Assembly (NCBI GenBank): GCA_934364795.1
Contig: CAKRMK010000004.1
Location: forward strand, 62,001-126,000
From: an uncultured Blautia sp.
Lineage (GTDB): Bacteria > Bacillota > Clostridia > Lachnospirales > Lachnospiraceae
Reading direction: 5' to 3'
Length of the DNA stretch: 64,000 nt
Shown in pieces: positions 5,905-28,657 of this stretch. How positions within the stretch are numbered: position 1 is the first letter of the stretch; every line of letters starts with the position of its first letter. Below the pieces are notes generated by a model. It was not told where the DNA came from, searched no databases, and was given only the letters and a program-made list of their open reading frames with translations. Position numbers and translations under genes: made by a program.

Positions 5905-8834
5905 TCAGTCACAGTGATAAGCAATCTTCTGCTCCTGGGTCAGATTTTCTCCATTGAGAAATTCTTTTCCTTTCTCATAGATTTCGGAAAGAGAAAGAAA
6001 TGGCACCGCATATAAGGTATGTACCCCATCAAAAATTATGACTTCGCCTTCTTCATTCATGCCAAGTCCGCCTTTGATCTTTGCTACAGGAGATGCTGTG
6101 GCATCCTTGCTGTAAATATCAAGCCTTGTCTCCCCACTGTCAGAAAGATATAACATTGCAAAATATGGCAGTCCCTCTGGTGCAGCAAAATCATATAAAG
6201 TAGCTGCCTGGGAAATAGTCAAAAGCACTTCTCCGGTAGTATCATCCAGAACAAACGCACCCTTATCACTGCTGCAAAGCAAAGCATAGCCGTCTACAGT
6301 TTCCATCCAGGAGAAATTGCCAAGATCTATTCTGGTAATTTCTTTTCCTGTTACATAATTATACATAATGTATTGTGTTCCACCTTCTGGCTGGTACAGG
6401 ATATATTTACATTCTGCAGAGCCTCTGAAGTCTGTACACTTCTGGGAAAATACCTCTTTTCGGTCTGGATCCAGAATACAGATCGTACTGACTTCATCTG
6501 TCTCTTCTAATATTTCGATCAGATAATCATCCAGAGAAATGTAAGCCTGGGTACAGTTTTCCGGAACTTCTTCTGTATAGACAGGTTCCAGTTCTTCTGC
6601 ACTTTTATCTGTTTTTTCATAACTGTACTTTTTCAGCAAACCATCTTCTACCATAAAAGCGCCGTTAACTTCCAGATTTTCTTCTGTTCCATCTGGGAGA
6701 TCTGTAATTTCTTCTCCGCTTATGGAATCGTAAATACTGATGGTTCCGTCAGATCGTTGCAGCTTACCAGATTGTCATCCACAACACTCATATAAGATAC
6801 CTTCTGGTTAAACTGAGCTCCCTCCAATGTGGAAAGATTAACTGCGTAGGAATTGGAACTTCCGTTTACCATAAGCATTTTTCCACGGCGGATCACATAA
6901 TCCAGGGTTTCATTTGATCCCTTGTTCATGGTATCTGTTTTGGAAGTACTGCGGTCATTCAGCTGATAAACGCGGAATTCATAGGCATTTAGCCGATAAG
7001 TGGCAATACAGGTATTTCCGGCGCGAAGCTCGGAGCATCCATTTCCATCACCGGCAAGCTGACCGATTCTATAGGGATCCTCTGTATAATCTACGTACTC
7101 AATGGCTCCGTCATTTGTAGCTACAGCAAAGGTAATCTTTTCCCCATCACCTGTATATTCTGCATCTGCAATATCGTCAGAAGCTTTATAGCTTTTCAGC
7201 TCTTCTCCGGTTTTCATGGAAGCGCAGATCAGATGGGAGCCGTCACGGTAATACACAACTCCTTTATCTGCGTCTGCATAACAGATATCGGATGTGATCT
7301 TTGTTTTTGTAGCATAAATTTTGTCTTCATCCATATCCAGGCAGCCATAATTATTGTTTTCATCTACAAAAAGTAACTGATGGCCCGACCAGGAAGTATC
7401 ATTATATACAGTGCTTACATATTTTTTGTCATCTATCTCTTTTAGGATTTCTCCGGTTTTGGTATCAATAACAAAAAGAGGATTCATTACATCATCATCC
7501 TCATAAAATTCACCGAATGCAGCATATTTTCCATCGTCGCTCATTCCATAATACATACCGTCATCACAGTCAAAGGTACGCTCTGACACCACTTCCCCTT
7601 CTGGTGTATAAAAGGTGATGGTTTTTGTTTCGGCATCAAAAGCACTGATCACAGACTCATCTTTACTTACACTTACAGTCATTGCATGTACGCCCTGCCA
7701 GAGAACCTCCATAGTCGTCAGGTCAATAACCTGGATTCCCTTCTTGCCTGCAATGACACAGCGGTGATCTCCAAAGAATTCCACCTTTGAATTACAGCTC
7801 TGGTGGCCGGCATAGTCCGGATCAACAGGAAAATCTGCTACCGTTTTATTTTCATTTATATCATAAAAATGAACTGTATAGTCGGTGGCACTTACCAGAT
7901 CCACATAAGCAATATAGTCATCATATGGACTTACTTTCAGGGCATCCATAGTCTGGGTTCCCACATTGTTCCGGGCAGCATAGCCCTTCTGATAGCTGTA
8001 CGTCTGCAGCGCATTTGTAAGAGACGCCATAGCTGCTCCTTCAAAAGGACGGTCATTTCCCATATCTTCAGGAAGTCCCTCCATAGCAAGCATGGCTGCA
8101 AGCTTGGGATTATCGGCAGCAAAAGCTGTGTCTGAATATTCTGACAAAAGGTAAGACTGTGCAGACTGCGTTTTTCGCACCTGGCTTTGCAGCTTCTGGT
8201 TCTCCAGGATTGTCTGTGCCAGAAAAGCACATACTACTGCAAAGGAAACACCACCTGCTGCAATTCCTCTTTGAAGCTTACGCTGTCTTTCACGCTGACG
8301 GAGCTGGTCAAACTCACAGTGCAGCATAGCCGCAAGAATACGCAGCTGCTCCACTTTCATTTTACGTTTCTGTTTCCCAGGTGTTTCACCTCTCACATCT
8401 GCAGCCAGGGGCTCTACTTCCACTTCCTGTCCATTTACTGTTCTGTGTGTAATGGCATAAGGAAAGCTGACCTGGGGCTCACCCTCTGCAAGTACCACTA
8501 TAATATGATCACTGCCTCTTAGTTTCTGGAACAGCTCAATCTCACGCATGCACCATTTGGACTCCTGAAGTCTGGGTGTACAGATTACAAGCAGATATTC
8601 AGACTGTCCAAGTGCTTCTTCAATATTATTGTAAAGACTGCTTGAGCTTGGAAGCTCGTCTACATCACGAAAGATCCGTCCCACTTTCTTTTTGCCGATT
8701 TTGGCGGCAAGTTTGGATGGAACGCGGTAATTCTCCAGCATGGTATGTAATGTTTTGGCTACAAATTCATCATTGCCTCCATGTCTGTAGCTGATGAAGG
8801 CCGTATATTTCCAGTTTTCCATTTGTCTTGTCAA
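5905..8834 (-). pseudogene. TIR domain - transmembrane - beta-propeller protein, split by a frameshift
   Basis: The 5' frame encodes 704 residues and stops near 6720; the remainder (5905-6654 and the bases up to about 6765) continues in the next frame with matching propeller-like repeats. Adding one base near 6765 restores a single 976-residue protein. Residues 9-130 form a TIR domain (TAFISYRHG, FRDVDELP, ESKWCMREIE with E98 as candidate catalytic glutamate). A basic juxtamembrane stretch and one membrane helix (about 190-210) follow, then a SYLLSEY..PKLAAMLAMEGLPED linker and WD40-like beta repeats to the end. TIR domains of this bacterial type can cleave NAD+ or act as scaffolds. A TTG start at 8834 lies 5 nt after GAGAGG and overlaps the upstream stop (TTGA). 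Last gene of the kinase operon. The frameshift may be real or a sequence error. Confidence 0.75.
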
Positions 8835-9715
8835 TCACACCTCTCATAGCTTCTTAAAAACACAGATTGCTCAATAATATAAACATCTGACAGATCGTCC
8901 TCCCGGACTGCAATATAATCCCCCTTAACGCCTTTTAAATATTTGTATCTGTCCCACTGGGTAAAAACCTTGGTGGATTCTGTAAGCTGTCTGGCAAAAA
9001 TATGATGCACATCCCTTGCCTGACAGGTTCTCATATGGGGAACCAGCTGATAAGCCTCACCTGTGATGGTATTGTGAATCACAGGTTCGTATTCACTGAC
9101 ATACTCTGGCTTTCCATCTGTAAACTCATAGGAATGTCGGAATTTTTCTTCTCTGATAGGGTATACTTCTCCGTCAATCCCGATCATAATATACAGATCC
9201 TGGCTGCTGATACACTCCATGTCCCCCTCTAATGTCCGCACAAGAACAGGCGTTCCCTCTTTCAGGAAATCAGCGGTGCATACTACTCCAAGCTTTGTCT
9301 TTTTCTTGCGGTAGCATTTCATCTGGTTCATATCTGCCTTGTATTCTTCTGATCTTACGATCTGGTACTGGTCAAAGTACTGATTCAGCCTTTCCTGGAA
9401 ATAAGCTTCATAATCGGCATTCTGTCTGCGTACAAGAAGCAGGCATTCTGAGAGAAAGCCTCCTGCTGATGTACCTTTGCCTCCCCCTGCTCCTACATTC
9501 TCTGCAAGGTAACTGGCAATTTCATCTGCACGTACCTCATTGGTACAGCTTCTCACCGCAAATTTACAGCCTGCCGGATCCTGGCCATACACAACACAAA
9601 GATCCCCTTTATTTTCTTCTTCCCAGTGATTGCAAAGCTTTCCCAGACCTTCCGGATCACAGGAATCAGCCTGGATCAGCATATATTTATTTTTTTCATC
9701 AGATAATTGCTTCAT
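8831..9715 (-). CDS. DHHA1-like / PGDYG domain protein of unknown function
   Basis: About 294 residues. Residues 25-95 resemble the DHHA1 subdomain found at the end of DHH phosphoesterases: a CKFAVRS strand, then ADEIASYLAE and GAGGGKGTSAGGFL, where the usual GGGH histidine is lysine. No DHH catalytic domain precedes it. The C-terminal half ends in YLKGVKGDYIAVRE and VYIIEQSVFLRSYE, matching the PGDYG family pattern. So it may bind a nucleotide-like ligand but should lack phosphoesterase activity (inference). ATG at 9715 follows GAGAGG by 6 nt; an upstream GTG at 9733 has no ribosome site. It sits 22 bp after the kinase and overlaps the TIR gene by 4 bp. Confidence 0.7.
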   Translation of the reverse strand: MKQLSDEKNKYMLIQADSCDPEGLGKLCNHWEEENKGDLCVVYGQDPAGCKFAVRSCTNEVRADEIASYLAENVGAGGGKGTSAGGFLSECLLLVRRQNADYEAYFQERLNQYFDQYQIVRSEEYKADMNQMKCYRKKKTKLGVVCTADFLKEGTPVLVRTLEGDMECISSQDLYIMIGIDGEVYPIREEKFRHSYEFTDGKPEYVSEYEPVIHNTITGEAYQLVPHMRTCQARDVHHIFARQLTESTKVFTQWDRYKYLKGVKGDYIAVREDDLSDVYIIEQSVFLRSYERCD

Positions 9716-9737
9716 AATTTTCCTCTCTGCCACAGTT

Positions 9738-12080
9738 TCAGGAAATCCAGTGCTTCACTACTTTGTACATTTTTGACAGTTCTACAGGCTTGGAAAGATG
9801 TTCGTTCATCCCTGCCTGTCTGGCAGCAAAAATATCTTCGGAAAAGGCATTGGCAGTCATGGCAATAATTGGAATCACACTTCCGTCCGGATGTGCACTT
9901 TTACGGATTTCCCTGGTTGCCTCATACCCGTTCATAACCGGCATCTGCACATCCATAAGGATCAGGTCGTAATAGCCCTGTGGGGAATTTACAAACTTGT
10001 CCAAAGCTTCTTTTCCATTTGTTGCTTTTTCGAAGGAAACCCCGGTTTCTTCCAGGAATGTGCAGGTGATCTCCATATTCAGTTCATTATCCTCTACTAC
10101 AAGGATGCGCTTTTGCTGCCAGTTGGGAATTTCATCATTTGGTTCTTCTGTGTCCGCTGGAACGGCCAGAATCTCTGCTGCTTTCATCGGAAGCATAACA
10201 TGAAAACAGGTTCCCTCGCCAAGCTCACTGTTAAATTCGATCACACCATTCATCAGATGGATCAGATTCCGGGTAATGGTCATTCCAAGCCCGGTTCCCT
10301 GCAGACTCTCTGTTTCCTGCGCCCGCTCAAATGGCTCAAATATATGCTGCTGAAATTCCTGTGACATTCCAAAACCGTTATCCTGAATCTGGAAATGGAT
10401 ATTCCGGTATCTGGTATTGTCATTTCCATCTTCCCATGCCAGGAACTTTATTTCTCCCCCATCTGGAGTAAATTTCACCGCATTTGACAGAAGATTCATA
10501 AGGATCTGCCGGATACGAAGTGCATCCCCAAGAAACATTCCGTCCGGAAGGTCAAAGGAGGTTACAAGCTGATGTCTGTGCTTCATTACAGAAGGACGGA
10601 TAAGATCAGCAGTTTCCTCTGTAAGGGAAACAAGATTCACTGGCTGCTCATCCAGAATCACTTTTCCACTTTCTATGCGGCTGACATCCAGAACATCATT
10701 GATCAGATCCAGCAAAATCTGTGAGGATTTCTTTATTTTGGCAATATTTTCCTTCAGGATTTCAGGAGAATCCAGATGCCGTTCCAAAATCTGGGTAAAA
10801 CCGGCAATGGCATTCATAGGGGTGCGGATATCATGAGACATATTGGAAAGAAAATCTGTTTTTGCCCTGCTTGCCTGTCTGGAGGCCTCACATGCAGCAC
10901 GAAGGGCCTCTTTTTCATCCATTTCTTTTTTATGGATTTCTGTGATATCGCGGATCGCCATAGTCACATAAGCAAGCTCATTTTTATTTCCGGAAAGGAG
11001 GATCACCACACGGAAATACCTGGGACCTTCTTCCCCCGGGATCACCTGGCAGTAATCATGCTCCCATGAAGTTTTTCCCTGCTGGTATAATTCCCGAAAA
11101 AAATTAAGGCTAAGGTCAATTTCTGCATTGAAGATGGCAGACTGCCTTCTCATACGGTTCCAGTTTTGCAAAATTTCCGAATAAGTTCCCTTGGGCTTCA
11201 GCCGGTTGCCATGAATCTCGTCCTTTATCACCCGGTACTGGTCAGTCTGGGCATCAATCTGCACAATGGTAAAATACACAGACCCCAGGGAATGGATGAT
11301 CTGCTCATTTTCCAGCTCTTTTTGTTCTATGATCTGATACTGTAAAGTAATATCTGTAAGAGTTACCTGAAGCAGATGATTCCCATCTGCGTTTCTGAGA
11401 CACTGCTGTAAGGCATGCAGCCTGCGATATCTGCCCTTGCCATCTACAGTCCGGAATTCACATTCATTACGGTCATTTTCCCTGTTTAATGAACAGTGGG
11501 TAGTGAGAACTAATATACGGTCATCGGGATGGATCTGGGGAAGGATGTCATTCAAAGTCTTATGCAGGCACTGATCTTCTCTTTCAAAGCCAAGGAGCTG
11601 CCAGGCTGCAGGATTGGCAAGCGTAATCTTCTGCTCACCCTCTTCAAATGTAAAACGCAAAACACCACAGTTAATGGAATTTAAAACCCGCTCCAGAACT
11701 TCCTTTTGCCTTGCCTCTCTTCTTCGTGCTTCAATTTCTTCACCAACCTCCACAAACATGCACTGAAGCAGTTCATGGCCATTTTCCAGCTGAACCAGCT
11801 TCACGTCCCCCTCAATGGCACTGTTGTGGGTTTTCAGTAAAAAATGAGACTGATCACCTAGATGGATCAGCTTCTTTAAGATTTCCCGGGCATACTTTAC
11901 ATTATCTTCATCCAGGTAAGCATCTGCAGACATGAGATTTCCCTTTTCAAGATGGACCTTCATAATCTGTTCTGCTCTTGGATTCACTCTGTAAATCTGG
12001 CAGGTATTTCCAAACGGGAGTTCCAGCTGCAAAATTCCACAGGGAATACTCTCGAATAATTCTTCATAATCTCTTTGCAT
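9738..12080 (-). CDS. PAS-containing hybrid sensor histidine kinase
   Basis: A 780-residue, apparently cytoplasmic hybrid kinase. Three PAS-like sensor modules span about 1-110, 125-250 and 260-385. HisKA carries the phospho-accepting H416 in [14 protein letters not shown]; HATPase_c with N, G1 (DNGFGMS) and G2 (GTGLGMT) boxes runs about 515-635; a receiver domain follows (about 658-775) with D710 in LILMDVQMPVMNG. No membrane segment, phosphotransfer domain or DNA-binding output is present. It heads the operon with the DHHA1/PGDYG and TIR genes, so it may sense a small molecule or redox state and signal to them. Partners are unknown. Confidence 0.9.
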   Translation of the reverse strand: MQRDYEELFESIPCGILQLELPFGNTCQIYRVNPRAEQIMKVHLEKGNLMSADAYLDEDNVKYAREILKKLIHLGDQSHFLLKTHNSAIEGDVKLVQLENGHELLQCMFVEVGEEIEARRREARQKEVLERVLNSINCGVLRFTFEEGEQKITLANPAAWQLLGFEREDQCLHKTLNDILPQIHPDDRILVLTTHCSLNRENDRNECEFRTVDGKGRYRRLHALQQCLRNADGNHLLQVTLTDITLQYQIIEQKELENEQIIHSLGSVYFTIVQIDAQTDQYRVIKDEIHGNRLKPKGTYSEILQNWNRMRRQSAIFNAEIDLSLNFFRELYQQGKTSWEHDYCQVIPGEEGPRYFRVVILLSGNKNELAYVTMAIRDITEIHKKEMDEKEALRAACEASRQASRAKTDFLSNMSHDIRTPMNAIAGFTQILERHLDSPEILKENIAKIKKSSQILLDLINDVLDVSRIESGKVILDEQPVNLVSLTEETADLIRPSVMKHRHQLVTSFDLPDGMFLGDALRIRQILMNLLSNAVKFTPDGGEIKFLAWEDGNDNTRYRNIHFQIQDNGFGMSQEFQQHIFEPFERAQETESLQGTGLGMTITRNLIHLMNGVIEFNSELGEGTCFHVMLPMKAAEILAVPADTEEPNDEIPNWQQKRILVVEDNELNMEITCTFLEETGVSFEKATNGKEALDKFVNSPQGYYDLILMDVQMPVMNGYEATREIRKSAHPDGSVIPIIAMTANAFSEDIFAARQAGMNEHLSKPVELSKMYKVVKHWIS

Positions 12081-12343
12081 TTGTCTCTATCCCTTTTCAC
12101 AAAATAAGCCGTCAACCTTAAAAGGGCTGGGATATACGGGAAAATCCTCTTTTGAAATTCCCGCCATATACCAGCAGTTTTATTGTTTCCAGTATAGCAC
12201 GTCACAGCAAAATCTGTCCAGATTCTTCTGTCTTTTTTCGATTTTTTTCAATTTTTTTAATTGCGTAAATTTTTTTAATATTTCTGTCCCATTAATGTAA
12301 CATATAGGTTCAATTAATATGGTAAAATATTGAAATATTTAGT

Positions 12344-12363
12344 GCCTGGAACATGCTCCAGGC
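12344..12363 (+). promoter_or_regulatory. 5' leader hairpin next to the ribosome-binding site
   Basis: GCCTGGA and TCCAGGC form a perfect 7-bp stem with a 6-nt loop that ends only 4 nt before the AAGGAGGG ribosome-binding site of the symporter gene. The 299-bp gap 12081-12379 otherwise holds AT-rich sequence with no gene that I can see. Confidence 0.5.
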
Positions 12364-12379
12364 CTCAAGGAGGGAACAA

Positions 12380-13603
12380 ATGAAAAATTTCTATGCGTGG
12401 TATAAAAAACATATCACAACCGCAATTTTCACAGGACTGATTCTGGGTATTCTCACCGGACTCTTTCTGGCAAACCGGTTTGAACCGGTTCTTACAGTGA
12501 CCAGTCTCATCGGAAGCATTTATATGAATGCTCTGAACATGATGATTTTTCCGTTGGTATTCTGTTCCATTGTTATGGGTATCACAAGCATTGGGAATGC
12601 ACGTACCACAGGCAAGATCACTGCCGGTGCCATGATTTTTTTCCTGTGCACCACAGCACTTGCCAGTCTGGCGGGACTTGTTATTCCAAGACTTATTAAC
12701 CTTGGAAAAAATGTAAAGTTTGAAATGGCAACTTCTGATATTCAGGCAACAGAAATGACCAGCATCCTGGATACCATCAAGAACCTGATCCCGTCTAACC
12801 CGGTTGCAGCCTTTGCAAACGGCAATATGCTTCAGGTACTTGTATTTGCTGTTATTGTAGGATTTACCCTTATTGCCATTGGAGAAAAAGGTGCGGCACT
12901 TCTCAAGGTGATTGATTCCTGCAATGAATTATGTCTTAAAGTTATCAGCATAGTAATGTATTTCACACCAATCGGTGTATTTTGTACCATCGTTCCTGTA
13001 GTGGAGGCAAATGGTACTGAAACCATTATTTCCCTGGCAACCCAGCTTATTATCCTGTACGTGGCATTTTTTGGATTCGCCCTTATTGTATATGGCGGAG
13101 CTGTGAAATTCATCGGCAAAGAAAGCCCTGTAAAATTTTTCAAAGCAATGCTTCCGGCTGCCTTAAATGCCTTTGGAACCTGCTCCAGTTCTGCTACTAT
13201 TCCTATCAGCAAGCAGTGTATGGAGGATGAAATGGGCGTATCAAACAAGATCACCAGTATTGCCATTCCTCTTGGTGCTACTGTAAACATGGATGCAGTT
13301 TCCATTCTGATGTCCTTTATGATCATGTTCTTTGCAAATGCCTGTGGAATCAATGTAAGCATTTCCATGATGATCATTATCCTTCTGGCAAACGTACTCC
13401 TCTCTGTAGGAACCCCGGGAATTCCAGGTGGTGCCATTGCTTCCTTTGCGGCACTTGCTACCATGGCAGGACTTCCGGCCGGTGTTATGGGCGTGTACAT
13501 AAGTATCAATACACTTTGTGATATGGGTGCTACCTGTGTCAACGTTATTGGTGATATGGCTGGCTGTGTAGTTCTGAAAGAAAAAATCAAGCTGGATGAA
13601 TAA
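12380..13603 (+). CDS. Dicarboxylate/amino acid:cation symporter (DAACS family)
   Basis: About 407 residues, hydrophobic throughout, with the glutamate-transporter-homologue fold signatures: the serine-rich re-entrant hairpin tip FGTCSSSATIPI near residue 270 and the substrate/Na+ segment ATVNMDAVS near 305, then GTPGIPGGAI. The family imports glutamate, aspartate or C4-dicarboxylates with Na+ or H+. ATG at 12380 lies 5 nt after AAGGAGGG; the upstream frame start at 12353 would read through the leader hairpin and is rejected. It is monocistronic, closed by the terminator at 13613-13664. I cannot choose between amino acid and dicarboxylate substrates. Confidence 0.92.
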   Translation: MKNFYAWYKKHITTAIFTGLILGILTGLFLANRFEPVLTVTSLIGSIYMNALNMMIFPLVFCSIVMGITSIGNARTTGKITAGAMIFFLCTTALASLAGLVIPRLINLGKNVKFEMATSDIQATEMTSILDTIKNLIPSNPVAAFANGNMLQVLVFAVIVGFTLIAIGEKGAALLKVIDSCNELCLKVISIVMYFTPIGVFCTIVPVVEANGTETIISLATQLIILYVAFFGFALIVYGGAVKFIGKESPVKFFKAMLPAALNAFGTCSSSATIPISKQCMEDEMGVSNKITSIAIPLGATVNMDAVSILMSFMIMFFANACGINVSISMMIIILLANVLLSVGTPGIPGGAIASFAALATMAGLPAGVMGVYISINTLCDMGATCVNVIGDMAGCVVLKEKIKLDE

Positions 13604-13612
13604 CCAATAATA

Positions 13613-13664
13613 AAAAGAACTGCTGCTTTTCTGAGTTTTAAATCAGAATTGCTGCAGTCCTTTT
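13613..13664. terminator. Bidirectional terminator between symporter and fucO
   Basis: Imperfect 22-bp stem (13613-13634 with 13643-13664; three mismatches near the middle) around a GTTTTAAA loop, with A and T runs outside. It separates two convergent genes. Confidence 0.75.
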
Positions 13665-13696
13665 TTATATACACTAAATGTATCTTATGTTTTGTC

Positions 13697-14842
13697 TTAC
13701 ATAATCTTTCTGAACAGTGCTTTCAGATCTTCTACGCTTGCATCTTTTGGATTTCCCGGTGCACATGCATCTGCATGAGCAGATTCTGCCAGGAATGTAA
13801 GATCCTCTTCTTTGATTGCTTCCAGCTTTGTGGGAATTCCCACATCAACAGACAGTTTTCTTACTGCATCAATAGCAGCTTTTCTGTACTCCTCCTGTGT
13901 CATGGAATCTACATCTTTTACACCCATTGCTCTTGCAATTTCGCGATATTTCTCACCGGTACATTCTTGATTGTATTCCATAACAATCGGAAGCATCATT
14001 GCACATGCAACACCATGAGGAGTATCATATACAGCACCTAATGTATGGGCCATAGAATGTGCAATACCAAGACCTACATTAGAGAAGCCCATTCCTGCAA
14101 TATACTGTCCAAGAGCCATTCCTTCGCGTCCTTCTTTGGTATTTGCAACAGCACCTCTTAAAGATTTGGAAATCAGCTCAATTGCCTTGAGATGGAACAT
14201 ATCTGTCATTTCCCAGGCAGCTTTTGTTGTGTATCCCTCGATTGCGTGTGTCAGGGCGTCCATACCTGTAGAAGCAGTCAGTCCCTTTGGCATGGAGGAC
14301 ATCATTTCAGGATCTACAACTGCAATGATAGGCATATCATGAGGATCTACACATACAAATTTTCTTTTCTTCTCAACGTCTGTAATAACATAGTTGATGG
14401 TAACCTCTGCTGCAGTTCCTGCTGTAGTCGGAACTGCCATGATCGGAACGCATGGATTTTTGGTAGGTGCTGTTCCCTCAAGGCTTCTTACATCTTCAAA
14501 CTCAGGGTTTGCAATAATGATACCGATTGCTTTTGCAGTGTCCATGGAAGAACCTCCGCCAATTGCAATAATATAATCAGCTCCTGATTTTTTAAATGCG
14601 GCTACACCATTTTGTACATTCTGAATGGTAGGATTCGCTTTAATATCAGAATAAATCTCATATTCAAGTCCATTTTTTTCAAGAATATCAGTTACTTTAC
14701 TTGTAACGTTAAATTTGATCAGATCCGGGTCTGAGCAGACAAATGCTTTTTTGTATGCACGTGCCTTTGCTTCATTTGCAATCTCTGCGATTGCTCCTGC
14801 TCCATGATAAGAAGTACCGTTTAAATTAATTCTGTTTGCCAT
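13697..14842 (-). CDS. fucO: Lactaldehyde reductase / 1,2-propanediol oxidoreductase
   Basis: A 381-residue group III iron-dependent alcohol dehydrogenase. Long stretches match my memory of E. coli FucO closely (AIGGGSSMDTAKAIG, VPTTAGTAAEVTINYVITD, KFVCVDPHD, DALTHAIEGY, TGEKYREIARAMGV). Metal ligands D195, H199, H262 and H276 are all present. It reduces L-lactaldehyde from fucose or rhamnose breakdown to 1,2-propanediol using NADH. ATG at 14842 is preferred over TTG at 14851 on spacing from AAAGGA. A Rex-type operator overlaps a TATAAT-like -10 at 14906-14923. A TetR regulator lies just upstream on the same strand. Confidence 0.9.
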   Translation of the reverse strand: MANRINLNGTSYHGAGAIAEIANEAKARAYKKAFVCSDPDLIKFNVTSKVTDILEKNGLEYEIYSDIKANPTIQNVQNGVAAFKKSGADYIIAIGGGSSMDTAKAIGIIIANPEFEDVRSLEGTAPTKNPCVPIMAVPTTAGTAAEVTINYVITDVEKKRKFVCVDPHDMPIIAVVDPEMMSSMPKGLTASTGMDALTHAIEGYTTKAAWEMTDMFHLKAIELISKSLRGAVANTKEGREGMALGQYIAGMGFSNVGLGIAHSMAHTLGAVYDTPHGVACAMMLPIVMEYNQECTGEKYREIARAMGVKDVDSMTQEEYRKAAIDAVRKLSVDVGIPTKLEAIKEEDLTFLAESAHADACAPGNPKDASVEDLKALFRKIM

Positions 14843-17353: not shown

Positions 17354-19862
17354 TCATCTGTCTGTAAAAAGTACTTTTCCCAATGTGCCAAGCAGCTCAG
17401 ATGCAATGACCGGCTTCGCCAGATGTCCATTCATTCCTGCTGCTCTGGATGCTGCCATATCCTCATCAAATGCGTTTGCTGAAACAGCCAGTACCGGAAT
17501 ATTGGCAAGTACAGGATCCTCCAGGGCTCTTATTGCCCGTGTTGCAGCGTATCCGTCCATAACAGGCATCTGTATATCCATAAGAATTGCAGCATAATAA
17601 CCTTTTGTGGAATTTTTCACTTTTTCCACAGCAATTGCACCATTTTCGGCAATATCAACTTTAAATCCTGTTTCTTCCAGAATGGCCACTGCAATTTCCC
17701 GGTTCAGGATATTATCTTCTGCAAGAAGAATTCTTTTTCCTGCAAAAAGTTCTGCCGGATATTCTACATTTTCTGTCTTTGGAAGTTCCCCCGGAGCTTT
17801 TGCAAGATGCAGACAAAGCTGCACTGTGATTTCAGTTCCCTTATTCTCCTCTGACTGAATTTTAATGGTACCACCCATTATGTCCACGAAACCCTTGATA
17901 ATGGTCATGCCAAGACCTGTTCCCTGAATTCCACTGACAGTGGAGGTAGACTGGCGTTCAAATGGAAGAAACACTTTTTTCTGAAATTCAGCACTCATTC
18001 CACAGCCATTATCCTTTACATGGATCTCATAATTCCCATATTCTGCCCGTTCACAGGGTTTCTGAATAATCTTAAGGGAAATTTCTCCTCCGCTTTTCGT
18101 ATACTTCACCGAATTGCTTAAAAGATTCACCAGAATCTCTTTCATACGAAGCTTGTCACAGTAAACATACAGATCCTGAACCTTTGAAAAATCAATAATA
18201 AATTTCTGCTGTTTTTCCAGAGCCTGATCTCTTATAATTATATCGGTTTCTTTTACAATCTCTTCAATATTCCATACAGCCTCGTCCAGCTTGGTCTGTC
18301 CGCTTTCGATTCTGCTGATTTCCAGGACTTCATTTACAATGCCAAGAAGATGGTTGCCTGACACCTGTATTTTACCAAGATAGTCCCTTACTTTTTCTGT
18401 GTCATCCCCTGCCTGGATAGCCAGATTGGTAAAACCAACAACAGCATTCATAGGGGTCCTGATATCATGAGACATATTCTGAAGAAAAACCTTTTTCGCT
18501 ACAGAGGCCTGCCTTGCCGCAAAAAGGGCTTCCTGAAGAAGCTCTTTTTGCTTCTGGTCTCTTCTGGCTGCTGCCTCCTGCATCCTTTCCCTACGTACAA
18601 AATACAAGATAATCAGGATCAGTATCACAGCCATCATTCCTGCAAACAGCCATACATGATCCTGAACCACATCAGTCAGTGTATATGTTGCCAGAGAATC
18701 CAGATAACGATAGGTATGATTCAGTCCATAGCTTTCTCCCAGAATACTGATTCCATGATTAACAATCTGAAGCAATGCAGTATTGCCATTTGCAATTGCA
18801 AAGCAGACCTTTTCATCATCCGTCAGTGTAATAATATTCAGCTTTTTCTCATTTCCAAGAAGATGGCTTACACGTAAGGCACTAAGCAAAGTGCTGTCTG
18901 CATCCCCATTTTTCAAGGCTTTTATGCAATCCTCAATGGTATCACACACAACCAGCTGTGCATCTGGATAATTGGTGATGGTATACCAGTATTGCCGCAG
19001 ATTATTTTTGTTTACAGCTATTTTCTGCGTAATGTCATCGCTGTAAGGCTCACGGTAAGCCAGCGCAATAGGAAATGCCACAATTGAATTCATCGATCAC
19101 CATAGCATCCTGTTCATTTACTATGGAAATGGCCATATTCAGCTCATTCAGAAGATCCACACGGTTCCTGGCAGTACAAAGATAATAAGGCTGCTTTCCA
19201 ATCTTCTCTACAGGGGTTATGCCTGAATAAGAAGAAACAGCATTATCCGCACTTACAAATCCGTCAATTTTTTTCTCATTGAAAGCACTTGCACATTCTG
19301 AAAAGTCATCAAAAGTTACGATTTCAAGATCGGCTCCGTAATCCTCCTTCCAGCTGGTAAGTGCCAAAGCCATCCTCTGGTCATTTTTTACGATTCCAAT
19401 TTTCTTCCCCTTATAAGAGCTTATCTCCCCACACTGCATGGAGGAGTCAGCCTCGTCCTTATAAATATAAAATGTCTCATTTAACATTTCTGCAGAAGGA
19501 TAATTAATAAGCTGGGTACGCTCCTCTGAATAGGCTATTCCTGCCATAAGATCAATTTTCCCATCTATCAGATCCTGGAACAGATCGGACCATTCGCCAT
19601 ATACGTATTCATATTTCCAGCCTGTATAAGATGCCAGCTTCTGAAGATATTCATAGCTGTATCCGCTCTTGGGGGCTCCATCATCCGTGCCATCCTGGAA
19701 ATTATGGGAAAAATAATATCCCACACGTACTGTTTTCTGATCTTTCGCATGCAGATTTACAGGAAAAAAGAGCATGATTCCCAGATACAAAAATATTCCC
19801 AGAAAAAAGATATGATATGGCTGTTTTTTTATTCGGTCTTTCGTTTCCTGTCCCCTGTCCAT
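17354..19862 (-). pseudogene. BvgS-like hybrid histidine kinase with periplasmic-binding-type sensor, split by a frameshift
   Basis: A signal anchor (residues about 18-37), then an extracellular SBP_bac_3 solute-binding domain (VRVGYYFSHNFQ, GWKYEYVYGEWSDLFQDLIDGKIDLMAGI). The frame breaks near 19080, where IDEFNCGIS runs to a stop and the overlapping frame continues NSIVAFPIALAYREPY, a second binding-domain part. Then come a membrane helix, HisKA ([14 protein letters not shown]), HATPase_c and a receiver ([13 protein letters not shown]). Removing one base near 19080 gives about 835 residues. Such kinases sense amino acids or similar solutes outside the cell. GGAGGTG precedes the ATG and a clear promoter lies upstream. 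It may be split in this strain or a sequencing error. Confidence 0.8.
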
Positions 19863-20021: not shown

Positions 20022-21362
20022 TTACGAAATGCTTTTCATCTGTTTCCATTTCCCGGTTCTATATTCCAGATAGGAAATCACAAAATTGGCAGTCCAGCCA
20101 ATGGGTACTGCATACCACACAAATGCAATTCCAAAGCGTGGAGCCAGCGTCATTGCCATAATCACACGGATACTTAAATTTACCAGATTGGCAACTGTAA
20201 ATATTTTCATGTCTCCCGCACCACGAAGGACACCATCTACTGCCATTTTAAATCCAATCATTCCAAAAAAGAATCCCATAAATACAAGATACTCTTTGCC
20301 GGTTGCAAGTGCTGTATCACTGCCCCCTGCTCCTAAAAATATGTGGATCAGCTCCGCCGGGAAAAGCTCCAGAACAATACAGATAAGAACTGCAAAGAAA
20401 ACCACCATTTTATTTGCCTGTACATATCCTTTTGACACACGTTTTAGCTGTCTGGCGCCAATATTCTGTGCTGTATATGAAGAAATGGCATTTCCGATTG
20501 CAGCCATAGGAACAATACAAATAGATTCAATACGCATTCCAGCTGAAAATCCTGCCAGCGCCTCCGCACCAAAGCTGTTCACAACAGACTGTACCAGCAT
20601 CATTCCAATCGATACTGTAGATTGCTGCAAAATAGAAGGAAGTGCAATCCTGGTCATAGGAAGCAGTTCTTCAGGTGCAAAAATACCATCTGCATTTCCT
20701 TCCAGTTTTCCAAGTACTTTCAGAAGCACAGTAAAAGAGCCAACTACAGATACTCCCTGCGCAATCAAAGTTGCCCAGGCAACACCAGCTACATCCAGGT
20801 GAAAATCTGCTACAAATATCCAGTCCAGTATAATATTAAATACAGACGAAAAAATCAGGAAATATAAGGGAATCCGGGATTTTCCAAGGGCATTGAACAT
20901 AGAGGACAATACATTATACATAAATAAAAATGGCAGTCCCAGAAAATATATTTTCAGATATGTAACCGCCATATCCAGAACCTCGGCAGGTGTATTCAAA
21001 GCTCTCATAATATTTTTACTGAACACAAGGCCAAAGCCACCAAGAAGTGTACTGATAACAAGAAAAGAAAGTAACGCTGTATAAATTGCTTTTTTTAATT
21101 TTCCGTAATTCCCCTGTCCAAAATACTGACTGACGATAACAGAGGCGCCTATTCCCCCACCAATGGCAATACAGATAAAAATATTGGTCAGAGAATAGGC
21201 AGCCCCAACAGCAGCCAGTGCATTTTCTCCTACAAGCCGTCCCACGATTGCAGAATCGGCCATGGTGTAGGCCTGCTGAAACAGGTTTCCAATGATCATG
21301 GGAAGCGAAAAGAAAATAAGCGCTTTAAGAGGTTTCTGGGTAATAAGATAATCGTTTTGCAT
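20022..21362 (-). CDS. MATE family efflux transporter
   Basis: About 446 residues with twelve predicted membrane helices. The N-terminus (KALIFFSLPMIIGNLFQQAYTMADSAIVGRLVG) and the repeated TAQNIGARQLKRVSKGY after the second lobe are characteristic of the MATE branch common in gut Clostridia. ATG at 21362 lies 9 nt after AGGAGT; the ATG at 21368 is too close. It is one of four intact MATE genes in the window. The substrate is unknown and no regulator lies beside it. Confidence 0.9.
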   Translation of the reverse strand: MQNDYLITQKPLKALIFFSLPMIIGNLFQQAYTMADSAIVGRLVGENALAAVGAAYSLTNIFICIAIGGGIGASVIVSQYFGQGNYGKLKKAIYTALLSFLVISTLLGGFGLVFSKNIMRALNTPAEVLDMAVTYLKIYFLGLPFLFMYNVLSSMFNALGKSRIPLYFLIFSSVFNIILDWIFVADFHLDVAGVAWATLIAQGVSVVGSFTVLLKVLGKLEGNADGIFAPEELLPMTRIALPSILQQSTVSIGMMLVQSVVNSFGAEALAGFSAGMRIESICIVPMAAIGNAISSYTAQNIGARQLKRVSKGYVQANKMVVFFAVLICIVLELFPAELIHIFLGAGGSDTALATGKEYLVFMGFFFGMIGFKMAVDGVLRGAGDMKIFTVANLVNLSIRVIMAMTLAPRFGIAFVWYAVPIGWTANFVISYLEYRTGKWKQMKSIS

Positions 21363-21451
21363 AAACATAATACTCCTGTCTGAAAATTCAAGTTACTGTT
21401 ATTATATCAAATGCAAAACAGGTTTTCCAGATTAATGTGCAATCCTATAAA

Positions 21452-21850
21452 TCATACATAATACTGCGCCTGTGCCATCCACAGCTGGAAATATTTTCCT
21501 TTTTTGTCTGCAGCCAGTGTTTCATGGCTTCCCATTTGCACCACTGTTCCATTATGAAAAACTGCAATTTTATCACAGAATTTGCAGGAGGACAGCCGGT
21601 GGCTGATATATATGGCAGTTTTATCTCCAATGATGCTATTGAATTTTTCGTAAATTTCCGCTTCCGCAACAGGATCTAAAGACGCCGTTGGCTCATCCAG
21701 AATAATAAATGGTGCATTTTTGTAAAGGGCTCTTGCAATGGCAATTTTCTGTGCTTCGCCTCCTGAAACATTGATTCCGTTTTTATTAAAGTCTTTATAC
21801 AGATAGGTATCCAGACCTTCCGGCATTTTGGAACAGGATTCTGAATCTTT
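21452..21850 (-). pseudogene. ABC exporter ATPase fragment (C-terminal half only)
   Basis: KMPEGLDTYLYKDFNKNGINVSGGEAQKIAIARALYKNAPFIILDEPTASLD..ISHRLSSCKFCDKIAVFHNGTVVQMGSHE is the signature-Walker B-switch half of an ABC exporter ATPase, recognisable in pieces. The transmembrane domain and Walker A are absent. The 5' part of the open frame overlaps the 3' end of the MATE gene at 21849 and is not ABC sequence, so the junction near 21850 marks a deletion. Confidence 0.8.
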
Positions 21851-23207
21851 ACGAAAAAGATAAGAACAGCTTTCTCTTAAGATACACCATACAGCCCACA
21901 CACAAAATCAGCTGTAAAACAGATGACATTGGCGTTGCCAGTCCTATATGAAAAAGTGTTGCCCAGGACTGTCTGCTCATGAAATAAAACACTGGAATCC
22001 TGACACCAAATGCCCCTATAATTCCCTGAATCATAACAAATTTTGTCATGCCGATACCATTGTAGAAACCGGTATAGCAGAAGAAAATAGAAGTAAACAT
22101 ACAGTCAATAGCGTACGCCTTCAGATAATCTGCCGCAGCTGTAATAACGCTTGGATCGGATGAGAAAATTCCAGCCAGAACATCCCCATGGAAAAATGAT
22201 AAAAAGAACATCAGTACACCTATTACAAAAGAAACACCGGCACCACAATACAGTGCTTTTTTCGCTCTGTCCATACGTCCCGCACCATAGTTCTGTGCCA
22301 CAAATGCGGAAATAGACTGCATAAAAGCAGAAGAAATCAGCATAATAAAGGCGCATACCTTCTCCGCTACTCCCACTCCGGCAGATGCTGTGACACCAAT
22401 GGAATTGACAATTGCCAGAATAATCAGAAAAGAAATGCTGACAAGGAGATCCTGCAGGGCAATAGGCGCTCCAAGAGCTGTCATTTTCCCAAGCAGACTG
22501 CTGTTTATCCGGATATTCTCTTTATGCAGTTCAAAGGGCAGCTCTTTACGCCTGATCATTCCAAAAGAAATCACCACGCTTACTACCTGTGCAAATACAG
22601 TGGCAAATGCCGCACCTTCTGTTCCCATTTTAAAACCGGCGCAAAGAAGCAGGTCTCCGGCAATATTACATACGCATGCAATTGCCACTGTGACAAGAGG
22701 CGTCCTGGAATCCCCAAGGCCTCTGAAAATACAGCCAATCAGGTTATAGGCAATGATCACCAGCATACCGCTTCCACAGATCCGCACATAATTAACAGTT
22801 TTGTCAAACGCTTCTTCTGGGGCATTCATAATCTGGCTTACCTGTGGGGCAAAAATCACCAGAACGATGGTCATAATCACTGCAATTATGGCAAACAACA
22901 CGATTGCAGTTCCAACTGTCTCTCCCCCTTTTTTGCGCTGTCCACAGCCGATCTGCTGACCAAGAAGCACGGTAGTCCCCATTGCAAAGCTGCTGACCAG
23001 GTTGGTAATTGTCATCATGATCTGGGAGCCTGTAGATACCGCAGAAACATCTGCAGAGGATGCAAATTTCCCTACGATCAGAAGATCAACCGCACCGTAC
23101 ATTGCCTGTAAAAACAGGGCAAACAATACCGGCAGGGCAAATAAGACCAGCGGCTGTAAAATTTTTCCCTCTGTAAATGATGTTGTTCTTTTGTTTCTTT
23201 CACACAT
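21849..23207 (-). CDS. MATE family efflux transporter
   Basis: A 452-residue MATE protein (FALPVLFALFLQAMYGAVDLLIVGKFA near the start; AVNSIGV and FVAQNYGAGRMDRAKKAL in the second lobe), beginning 9 nt after AGGAGT. It is more like the exporter at 336-1697 than that at 20022-21362 (both share the S-T-G-S-Q helix-2 segment). Its C-terminal codons run into the truncated ABC ATPase, so its last residues may be altered by the same deletion. Confidence 0.88.
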   Translation of the reverse strand: MCERNKRTTSFTEGKILQPLVLFALPVLFALFLQAMYGAVDLLIVGKFASSADVSAVSTGSQIMMTITNLVSSFAMGTTVLLGQQIGCGQRKKGGETVGTAIVLFAIIAVIMTIVLVIFAPQVSQIMNAPEEAFDKTVNYVRICGSGMLVIIAYNLIGCIFRGLGDSRTPLVTVAIACVCNIAGDLLLCAGFKMGTEGAAFATVFAQVVSVVISFGMIRRKELPFELHKENIRINSSLLGKMTALGAPIALQDLLVSISFLIILAIVNSIGVTASAGVGVAEKVCAFIMLISSAFMQSISAFVAQNYGAGRMDRAKKALYCGAGVSFVIGVLMFFLSFFHGDVLAGIFSSDPSVITAAADYLKAYAIDCMFTSIFFCYTGFYNGIGMTKFVMIQGIIGAFGVRIPVFYFMSRQSWATLFHIGLATPMSSVLQLILCVGCMVYLKRKLFLSFS

Positions 23208-27038: not shown

Positions 27039-27289
27039 TTATATAGTGCCTCTCTTTCGAAAAAATATCTTCACATTTTGTATTTTATTGTATCATTTGC
27101 TGCGCTAAATAGCAAGTATAACTAAATAATTTGACGATCCCCAAAGATATTCAGTAAAAATACAGAGAAAAATATCTCCTCAAAGTGGTGACATTCAGAC
27201 CCCAGTATGTTAAAATAACTCACGCTGTAAAAATGATCATTAACTTTTTTACTTTACATATTAAATCAAAAGAAAGGAAAGGGTTTAAA

Positions 27290-28657
27290 ATGGAAAAAGA
27301 CATGACCAAGGGCAGACCCCTGCCCGTAATTCTGAAATTTATTCTCCCTCTTGTTATCGGAAATATTTTTCAGCAGCTATATAATATGGCAGACACTATT
27401 ATTGTAGGACGTTATGTAGGTTCTGACGCACTGGCTGCAGTTGGTTCTACCGGAACGATCATATTCCTTATTGTGGGCTTTGCACAGGGAATTACCGCCG
27501 GTTTTGCTGTACTTACGTCCCAGCGTTTTGGTGCAAAAGATACAGAAGGTGTAAAAATCAGTGTTGCCAACGGAATCCTTCTGTCACTTATTTTTTCGGT
27601 GCTGCTTAGCTCTTCAAGCATGTTAAGCATGCGTACTTTGCTGAAACTGATGAACACACCACAGAACATCTTTCAGGATGCCTATACTTATATTATGATC
27701 ATCAGCGCCGGAATCATTGCAACCATTTTTTATAATCTGCTTTCCTCCTACCTGCGTGCAGTCGGAAACAGCAAGATTCCGCTGGTTTTCCTTGTATTTT
27801 CCGCAGCACTGAACGTGGTTCTGGACCTTGTGCTTATTATAAATTTCAAAATGGGTGTGGCAGGAGCAGCCTATGCCACTGTCTTTTCCCAGGGAATTTC
27901 TGCGATTCTGTGTCTTATTTATATTTTTGTACGTATGCCTGATCTAGCACCAAATAAAAGACACTGGAAGCTTCACGGAAGAGAAAGCCGCCATCAGCTT
28001 GCCATGGGAATTCCTATGGCCCTTCAGTTCGCCATTACTGCTTCCGGTACCATGATCATGCAAGCTGCCATCAACCTGTTTGGCTCTGACGCTGTGGCTT
28101 CCTTTACAGCTGCCAGCAAACTGCAGAACCTGGTCACACAGGGAATGATCGCAATGGGACAGACAATGGCCGCTTACAGCGGACAGAACTTTGGAAAAGG
28201 TGACATTGGCCGTATCCGCCAGGGTGTAAAGGCAGCGCTTCAGGTTTCTGTTATCTACGCACTTGCAGCTGCAGTTCTTGTGTGCACATTACTAAAACCT
28301 GCACTGGGACTGTTTTTCACCGGAGATGTGGATATGAACAGCATGCTTCCCTGGGCCAAAACTTATGTTTATATGAGTGCGGTCTTTTATATTCCCCTTG
28401 GAACCATCTTCATTTTCCGAAATACCATGCAGGGCTGTGGCTATGGTTTCCTTCCTATGATGGGCGGTGTATCCGAGCTTCTGGCACGACTTGTGGTGGC
28501 ACTTATTTCCATGGCACTGGTAAGCTATCCCCTTGCATGCTTCTGTGATCCGGCAGCCTGGGTTGCAGCTGCAGTTTTCACCGGTGTTTCTTATCTTTTC
28601 GTTATGAAAGATATCCGAAGGAAATACGAGAATCCAAAAACTTCATCCGTTTCCTGA
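27290..28657 (+). CDS. MATE family efflux transporter
   Basis: About 455 residues, twelve helices, with the family N-terminus MEKDMTKGRPLPVILKFILP and NIFQQLYNMADTIIVGRYVG. The second lobe opens with LAMGIPMALQF, and AYSGQNFGKGDIGRIRQGV follows. ATG at 27290 is preferred: AAAGGAAAGGG precedes it, and the upstream frame from 27185 covers promoter-like AT-rich DNA. The only plus-strand MATE gene here, transcribed away from the microcompartment operon. No regulator adjoins it. Confidence 0.9.
   Translation: MEKDMTKGRPLPVILKFILPLVIGNIFQQLYNMADTIIVGRYVGSDALAAVGSTGTIIFLIVGFAQGITAGFAVLTSQRFGAKDTEGVKISVANGILLSLIFSVLLSSSSMLSMRTLLKLMNTPQNIFQDAYTYIMIISAGIIATIFYNLLSSYLRAVGNSKIPLVFLVFSAALNVVLDLVLIINFKMGVAGAAYATVFSQGISAILCLIYIFVRMPDLAPNKRHWKLHGRESRHQLAMGIPMALQFAITASGTMIMQAAINLFGSDAVASFTAASKLQNLVTQGMIAMGQTMAAYSGQNFGKGDIGRIRQGVKAALQVSVIYALAAAVLVCTLLKPALGLFFTGDVDMNSMLPWAKTYVYMSAVFYIPLGTIFIFRNTMQGCGYGFLPMMGGVSELLARLVVALISMALVSYPLACFCDPAAWVAAAVFTGVSYLFVMKDIRRKYENPKTSSVS

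Follow-up and report, generated by a model that had tools for sequence, protein, structure and literature searches.

The locus examined here lies in a window of 64,000 nucleotides from an uncultured Blautia species (contig CAKRMK010000004.1, positions 62,001 to 126,000; the window hereafter means this whole stretch), in which genes for a kinase, a DHHA1-like protein and a TIR-propeller protein adjoin. The question it raises is whether these genes form an undescribed signalling or defence system, as a first-pass annotation had proposed, and what the protein in the middle would contribute to it. Nucleotides derived from NAD+ can serve as signals of bacterial TIR proteins, and to our knowledge the switching-off of such signals is poorly known. 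DHH phosphodiesterases that repeatedly accompany TIR proteins would be a candidate off-switch for TIR signals, and the existence of natural full-length and truncated forms makes this idea directly testable. The reading advanced here, to which we give slightly less than an even chance, builds on the observed gene order, clade conservation, motif states and linkage, and takes the locus to be a derived branch of a recurrent TIR/DHH-phosphodiesterase signalling pair, present here with a catalytically dead DHHA1 regulator and a kinase.

Gene content and organization of the locus

The kinase, the middle protein and the TIR gene of the proposed minus-strand group were all found (Table 1), with the start of the TIR open reading frame (ORF) overlapping the middle gene by 4 bp, but the TIR frame proved to be broken. 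The description of the kinase as a cytoplasmic PAS hybrid kinase held: Pfam recognised PAS domains, HisKA, HATPase_c and a receiver, a motif check found the active-site residues of both kinase and receiver retained, as in a hybrid histidine kinase, and a hydropathy search of the protein for a membrane-like stretch found none, so it is placed in the cytoplasm. Promoter-like sites at the locus were no more frequent than in shuffled sequence, and terminator-like sites were less frequent. Elsewhere in the window, four MATE-type efflux pump-like genes, recognised by eye, occur within 28 kb (336-1718, 20022-21368, 21849-23207 and 27185-28657).

Table 1. Coordinates of features at the locus (positions within the window).
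Feature	Position	Strand	Details
Hybrid histidine kinase, 780 aa	9738..12080	(-)	Pfam, motifs, hydropathy, clade P0241-P0256
Middle protein, 300 aa (294 from ATG at 9715)	8831..9733	(-)	DHHA1 and C-terminal beta-rich part, no DHH domain
DHHA1 domain, residues 1-123; GGGK in place of GGGH	9365..9733	(-)	
Stretch related to phage family phrog_419, residues 159-248	8990..9259	(-)	E 2.4e-7
TIR ORF, 704 aa (ATG at 8822 alternative), first part of broken ~976-aa gene	6720..8834	(-)	
TIR domain, residues 13-120	8475..8798	(-)	PF13676 38.4 bits, cut-off 28
Glu98 of WCxxE motif, predicted catalytic	8541..8543	(-)	E in 153/153 aligned rows
Lone hydrophobic segment, residues 191-209, predicted membrane span	8208..8264	(-)	hydropathy; P0123 start and numbering identical
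Region of TIR reading-frame break	6720..6760	(-)	homology stops at residue 695, resumes in another frame
249-aa ORF, rest of propeller part in other frame	5905..6654	(-)	72% identity to last 249 residues of P0122

The TIR protein and its reading-frame break

The TIR gene is broken in the window, by mutation or by assembly, because P0122, a 972-aa homologue in one frame, aligns to both of its pieces (80% over 691 residues and 72% over 249) and P0123, an intact protein of 976 aa, shares 99.4% identity with residues 1-695 of the window ORF; the latter looks like an intact version of apparently the same gene. Elsewhere, within positions 17354-19862 of the window, an ORF for a solute-binding protein (19050-19862) and one for a kinase (17354-19093) overlap in different frames, and by eye the two appear to be one gene; if this is a second frame break, it would favour assembly error in the window. 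In a related region (L045:10458-13559), the TIR-propeller gene next to a full-length DHH gene is likewise split, into ORFs of 396 and 632 aa.

Apart from this break, the view of the product as a membrane-anchored TIR protein with a propeller exterior is in keeping with a TIR domain, a predicted span and a charge bias. In each of the 37 TIR proteins examined, the segment of highest hydrophobicity falls within residues 180-216, its mean hydropathy being >1.6 in 32 of them, and the TIR domain is probably intracellular and the beta-propeller extracellular, since the N-terminal (TIR) side of the span is the more positive in 35 of the 37. The annotation had made its proposal depend on a catalytic pocket in the TIR domain, and the sequence agrees with this, PF13676 scoring above its cut-off and the predicted catalytic glutamate, whose role is presumably that of its counterpart in TIR NADases, occurring in every aligned row. 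Cleavage of NAD+ or synthesis of a nucleotide by the TIR protein is plausible because this residue is so uniformly present.

The middle protein resembles a phosphodiesterase without its catalytic half

Judged by its sequence, the middle protein corresponds to the C-terminal portion of a DHH/DHHA1 phosphodiesterase of ~500 residues, the catalytic half having been lost. Neither the DHH half nor the GGGH histidine occurs in any of the 30 members of the window clade, and the HxxPDxD and DHH metal motifs are likewise found in none of the 30, the position of the histidine being occupied by Q in 25, K in three (the window protein has K), A in one and E in one. All 88 full-length relatives among the matches listed retain DHH with complete metal motifs, and their fold matches cyclic dinucleotide phosphodiesterases of the GdpP/NrnA/TmPDE type. 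The window protein has a DHHA1 domain, and it has neither the DHH motifs nor the GGGH of an active enzyme; its own comparison with the PDB covered mainly residues 1-123. The truncated clade is monophyletic, with the full-length P0031 as sister (support 100/100), and the form without DHH is present in at least 30 clusters of 272-308 aa. Among the matches listed for the middle protein, the closest with a named source belongs to Blautia (P0011, 71%).

The first-pass label of this protein, DHHA1-like/PGDYG, stands in its first part, the DHHA1 domain being a phosphodiesterase remnant, and was dropped in its second: PGDYG (PF14083) went unmatched in the window protein at E<=1, phrog_419 being matched instead. 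In distant relatives PGDYG stays under the Pfam cut-off of 27 bits (12.9 in L085 and 17.4 in L084). The C-terminal half gave a weak signal of a tandem repeat (hhalign probability 29%, E 0.00059, in one comparison). Small proteins of phrog_419 on viral contigs (L106:7872-8132 and L099:7860-8141) carry the C-terminal beta-rich domain of the middle protein, and a phage family related to phrog_419 bears the label nucleotide pyrophosphohydrolase. On viral contigs, the scan returned 16 loci, which had either distant DHH proteins or the phage domain only.

Conservation of the three genes

Each of the three proteins belongs to a tight clade among the up to 120 matches listed for it. Homologues of the middle protein (P0001-P0030) are 57-75% identical, excluding the window's own, with the next at 53%; those of the kinase (P0241-P0256) are 64-80% identical, likewise excluding the window's own, with the next at 34%; and those of the TIR protein (P0121-P0137) are 61-80% identical to the L001 copy used as query, followed by a 548-aa fragment (57% over half of the query) and then 32%. 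All 17 listed TIR proteins of the clade are 972-982 aa long. Three contig sizes (23779, 24876 and 22702) recur across the three homologue lists, and among the matches listed further equal-sized contigs are common to kinase and middle protein (five), kinase and TIR (one) and middle protein and TIR (one), while none of the 104 other listed kinases has a contig size in common with the middle or TIR lists. Taking equal size to mean the same contig, we infer that several clade contigs hold two or all three genes. The sole genome-contig locus found (L001, a Clostridia metagenome-assembled genome) has the identical gene order, with an intact TIR protein of 973 aa and broken kinase and middle frames; the frame breaks in the window and in L001 put the working state of the window copy in doubt.

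The anticipated linkage of the three genes in relatives is therefore found within the window clade, in the three contig sizes common to all lists, but the kinase is irregular in the wider DHHA1 family. Of the 56 fetched regions, only L058 has a kinase as the gene next upstream of the family gene, and other kinase or receiver genes near family genes are scattered across these regions. The clade bearing the kinase is the one without the DHH half.

Neighbourhoods of relatives and linkage to TIR genes

In 12 of the 56 regions a TIR gene of 900-1050 aa lies directly downstream of the family gene on the same strand, five times with a 4-bp overlap (L033, L035, L037, L040, L043, L046, L047, L049, L051, L052, L058 and L065), and in L034 it follows after one small ORF. 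Other arrangements comprise an adjoining TIR gene on the opposite strand (L050, L053, L054, L057 and L064), a TIR gene upstream (L045, split into two ORFs, and L056, with one gene between), and TIR genes with DUF6273 directly upstream (L048 and L055). At L081-L085, a TIR protein of ~300 aa is followed by one ~500-aa gene and then the family gene, these last two being fused at L080 in a protein that includes a cyclase, so that the partners of the family comprise three TIR types. Only the C-terminal region is certain as the common part of the L080-L085 branch because Pfam does not recognise DHHA1 there. The candidate L082 operon (9432-13822, scanned in full) encodes a GAF-GGDEF protein, a TIR protein, a receiver-nucleotide cyclase and a relative of the middle protein, and its cyclase matches Pycsar cyclase (PycC) profiles at E 2.6e-21, a match that class III cyclases generally could give. 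Some family genes with no TIR nearby (L041, L042, L073 and L087) lie, by eye, among genes resembling IMP dehydrogenase, purine and glutaminyl-tRNA synthetase genes, which may mark a housekeeping site.

The linkage of DHHA1-family and TIR genes extends beyond the window clade. Of the 299 genomes in the family of L001, 77 match the middle protein at E<=0.001, and 53 of these formed the first set, after exclusion of G001 and of 23 genomes whose matches were weaker than 1e-11; a second set of 25 further genomes excludes G472, G501 and six weak matches. TIR_2 matches lay within 6 kb of a family gene in 32 of 82 cases in the first set and 17 of 38 in the second, against about 0.36 and 0.16 expected, where the expectations are based on average genomes of 2.9 and 3.1 Mb, distances run between matched stretches, the 6-kb limit was chosen after the regions had been viewed, and the genomes, sharing ancestry, provide non-independent trials. 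Under Pfam's cut-off were two of the 82 TIR matches and one of the 38. Other DHH genes lay within 6 kb of a TIR match in only one of 150 cases among the matches listed in the 53 genomes. Of the 53 genomes with the family, 39 had a TIR gene, as did 15 of 40 without it, these 40 being the lowest-numbered of 222 family-free genomes. Roughly half of the family genes lack a TIR within 6 kb (26 of 57 when contigs are the unit of counting, and 13 of 27). On the family tree, the TIR label requires 18 changes (shuffled mean 21.3, with 37 of 500 shuffles as low), indicative of mild clustering, and the well-supported branches require at least 10. The middle and TIR genes belong to a widespread and apparently unnamed pairing; a literature search found no DHH(A1)-TIR pairing in titles or abstract openings of the papers listed, which is not proof of its being unpublished.

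Proposed mechanism and alternative explanations

For the biochemical steps, the topology and the direction of control, we infer the following course. The TIR protein would be receptor-like, with the TIR domain inside the cell, one membrane span and the beta-propeller outside; the propeller would sense an event, whereupon TIR domains would cluster and act on NAD+ or a related nucleotide. The middle protein may control the TIR protein, the favoured form of this being an enzyme that resets the module in the ancestral pair and a regulator that only binds in the window clade. In the ancestral pair, the DHH-DHHA1 neighbour would hydrolyse a (di)nucleotide and thereby reset or limit the module. The partner in the window clade, having lost the DHH half and the substrate histidine, would be expected to bind a nucleotide or the TIR protein but to cleave nothing, as sensor, adaptor or brake, and the cytoplasmic PAS kinase would provide a further input. 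The linkage, gene order, motifs, fold, clade monophyly, contig sizes common to the trio, TIR glutamate, charge bias and L082 operon, together with the published discussion of DHH phosphodiesterases as acting on immune nucleotide signals (PMC7824862), argue for a signalling pair; the TIR-free half of the family genes, the mild clustering on the tree and the five opposite-strand TIR genes count against it, as does the fact that DHH proteins are often housekeeping proteins. A wider formulation, which we hold a shade less probable, is that this is an undescribed transmembrane TIR system of Clostridia with the layout of a Toll-like receptor, its output reset by a dedicated DHH phosphodiesterase that in one branch has become a catalytically dead nucleotide sensor coupled to a kinase. 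If true, an enzyme would have turned into a sensor while retaining its signalling partner, and the switch could be traced in living relatives.

A serious rival, although less probable than a general signalling role, is that the module acts in antiphage defence, with the TIR protein depleting NAD+ or making a death signal upon infection and the DHH(A1) partner or its phage-like part serving as infection sensor or off-switch. TIR NADases are common defence effectors, as abstracts on the subject also indicate, and the relation of the middle protein's C-terminal part to a phage family, the company of a Pycsar-profile cyclase and a TIR gene at L082, and the match of the L033 TIR protein to a defence candidate profile (PDC-S66, 5.6e-7) are all consistent with such a role. 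However, the window's four ORFs match known defence systems only weakly or at the level of domains, and environmental sensing is an equally good fit for the PAS kinase and for a propeller predicted to face outward.

That the family is instead a housekeeping enzyme of the nanoRNase/pAp type, near which TIR genes hitch-hike at an insertion spot, appears improbable. The frequent lack of a nearby TIR gene and the setting of some family genes among metabolic and synthetase-like genes would fit this explanation, but it loses ground because just one of the 150 other DHH genes listed lay near a TIR match, and the three TIR types, several orders and strands and differing flanks, together with retention of the TIR gene by the truncated clade despite its loss of the enzyme half, also speak against it. 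Least probable is that the locus is decaying and functionless in the strain of the window, as the broken frames here and in syntenic L001 might suggest, given the intact and nearly identical P0123, the persistence of the DHH-less form across clusters, the constant length of the clade's TIR proteins and the possibility of errors in L001 as a metagenome assembly.

Comparison with known systems

Membership of a catalogued defence system was considered and found no support, PADLOC and NCBIfam scans of the window's four ORFs giving weak or domain-level matches only, and the four ORFs fall outside the definitions of Thoeris, CBASS and Pycsar. The window TIR weakly matches ThsB models (E 0.0022; Pfam ThsB_TIR 24.3 against 21.2 bits), but unlike Thoeris its TIR protein is membrane-bound with a propeller and has a DHHA1 partner, and ThsA models matched none of the four ORFs at E<=1. 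The four ORFs likewise gave no match to a CD-NTase, as CBASS would have, and none to a cyclase domain or PycC. Pycsar, which combines a cyclase with a TIR or membrane effector, is approached by the L082 operon with its PycC-profile cyclase and TIR, from which it differs in adding GGDEF and a DHHA1-family relative; the window trio has no cyclase.

In the available excerpts of the literature, a gut TIR survey counts two TIRs in Blautia hansenii, none of them characterised (PMC9092222), and TIR, cyclase and GGDEF parts are described in other conflict systems in an excerpt from which the term 'DHH' is absent (PMC7159879). An excerpt of a further paper discusses a possible role of DHH-superfamily phosphodiesterases in countering immune nucleotide signals and cites, by title, a DHH-DHHA1 nuclease degrading a CRISPR second messenger (PMC7824862). 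TIR-STAND-WD40 and similar bacterial TIR receptors, as described in part of PMC9153377, have the same N-terminal TIR and C-terminal propeller-like part as the window TIR protein, which differs from that description in having a membrane span where those receptors have a nucleotide-binding domain, and in its DHH(A1) neighbour gene. The closest likeness of the middle protein is to the DHH/DHHA1 phosphodiesterases GdpP, NrnA/Pde2, TmPDE (TM1595) and DhhP: its full-length relatives have their whole DHH-DHHA1 fold and motifs, and the window protein retains the DHHA1 fold, while, unlike these enzymes, the window clade has dispensed with the DHH half and GGGH histidine, carries an extra C-terminal part and is linked to TIR.
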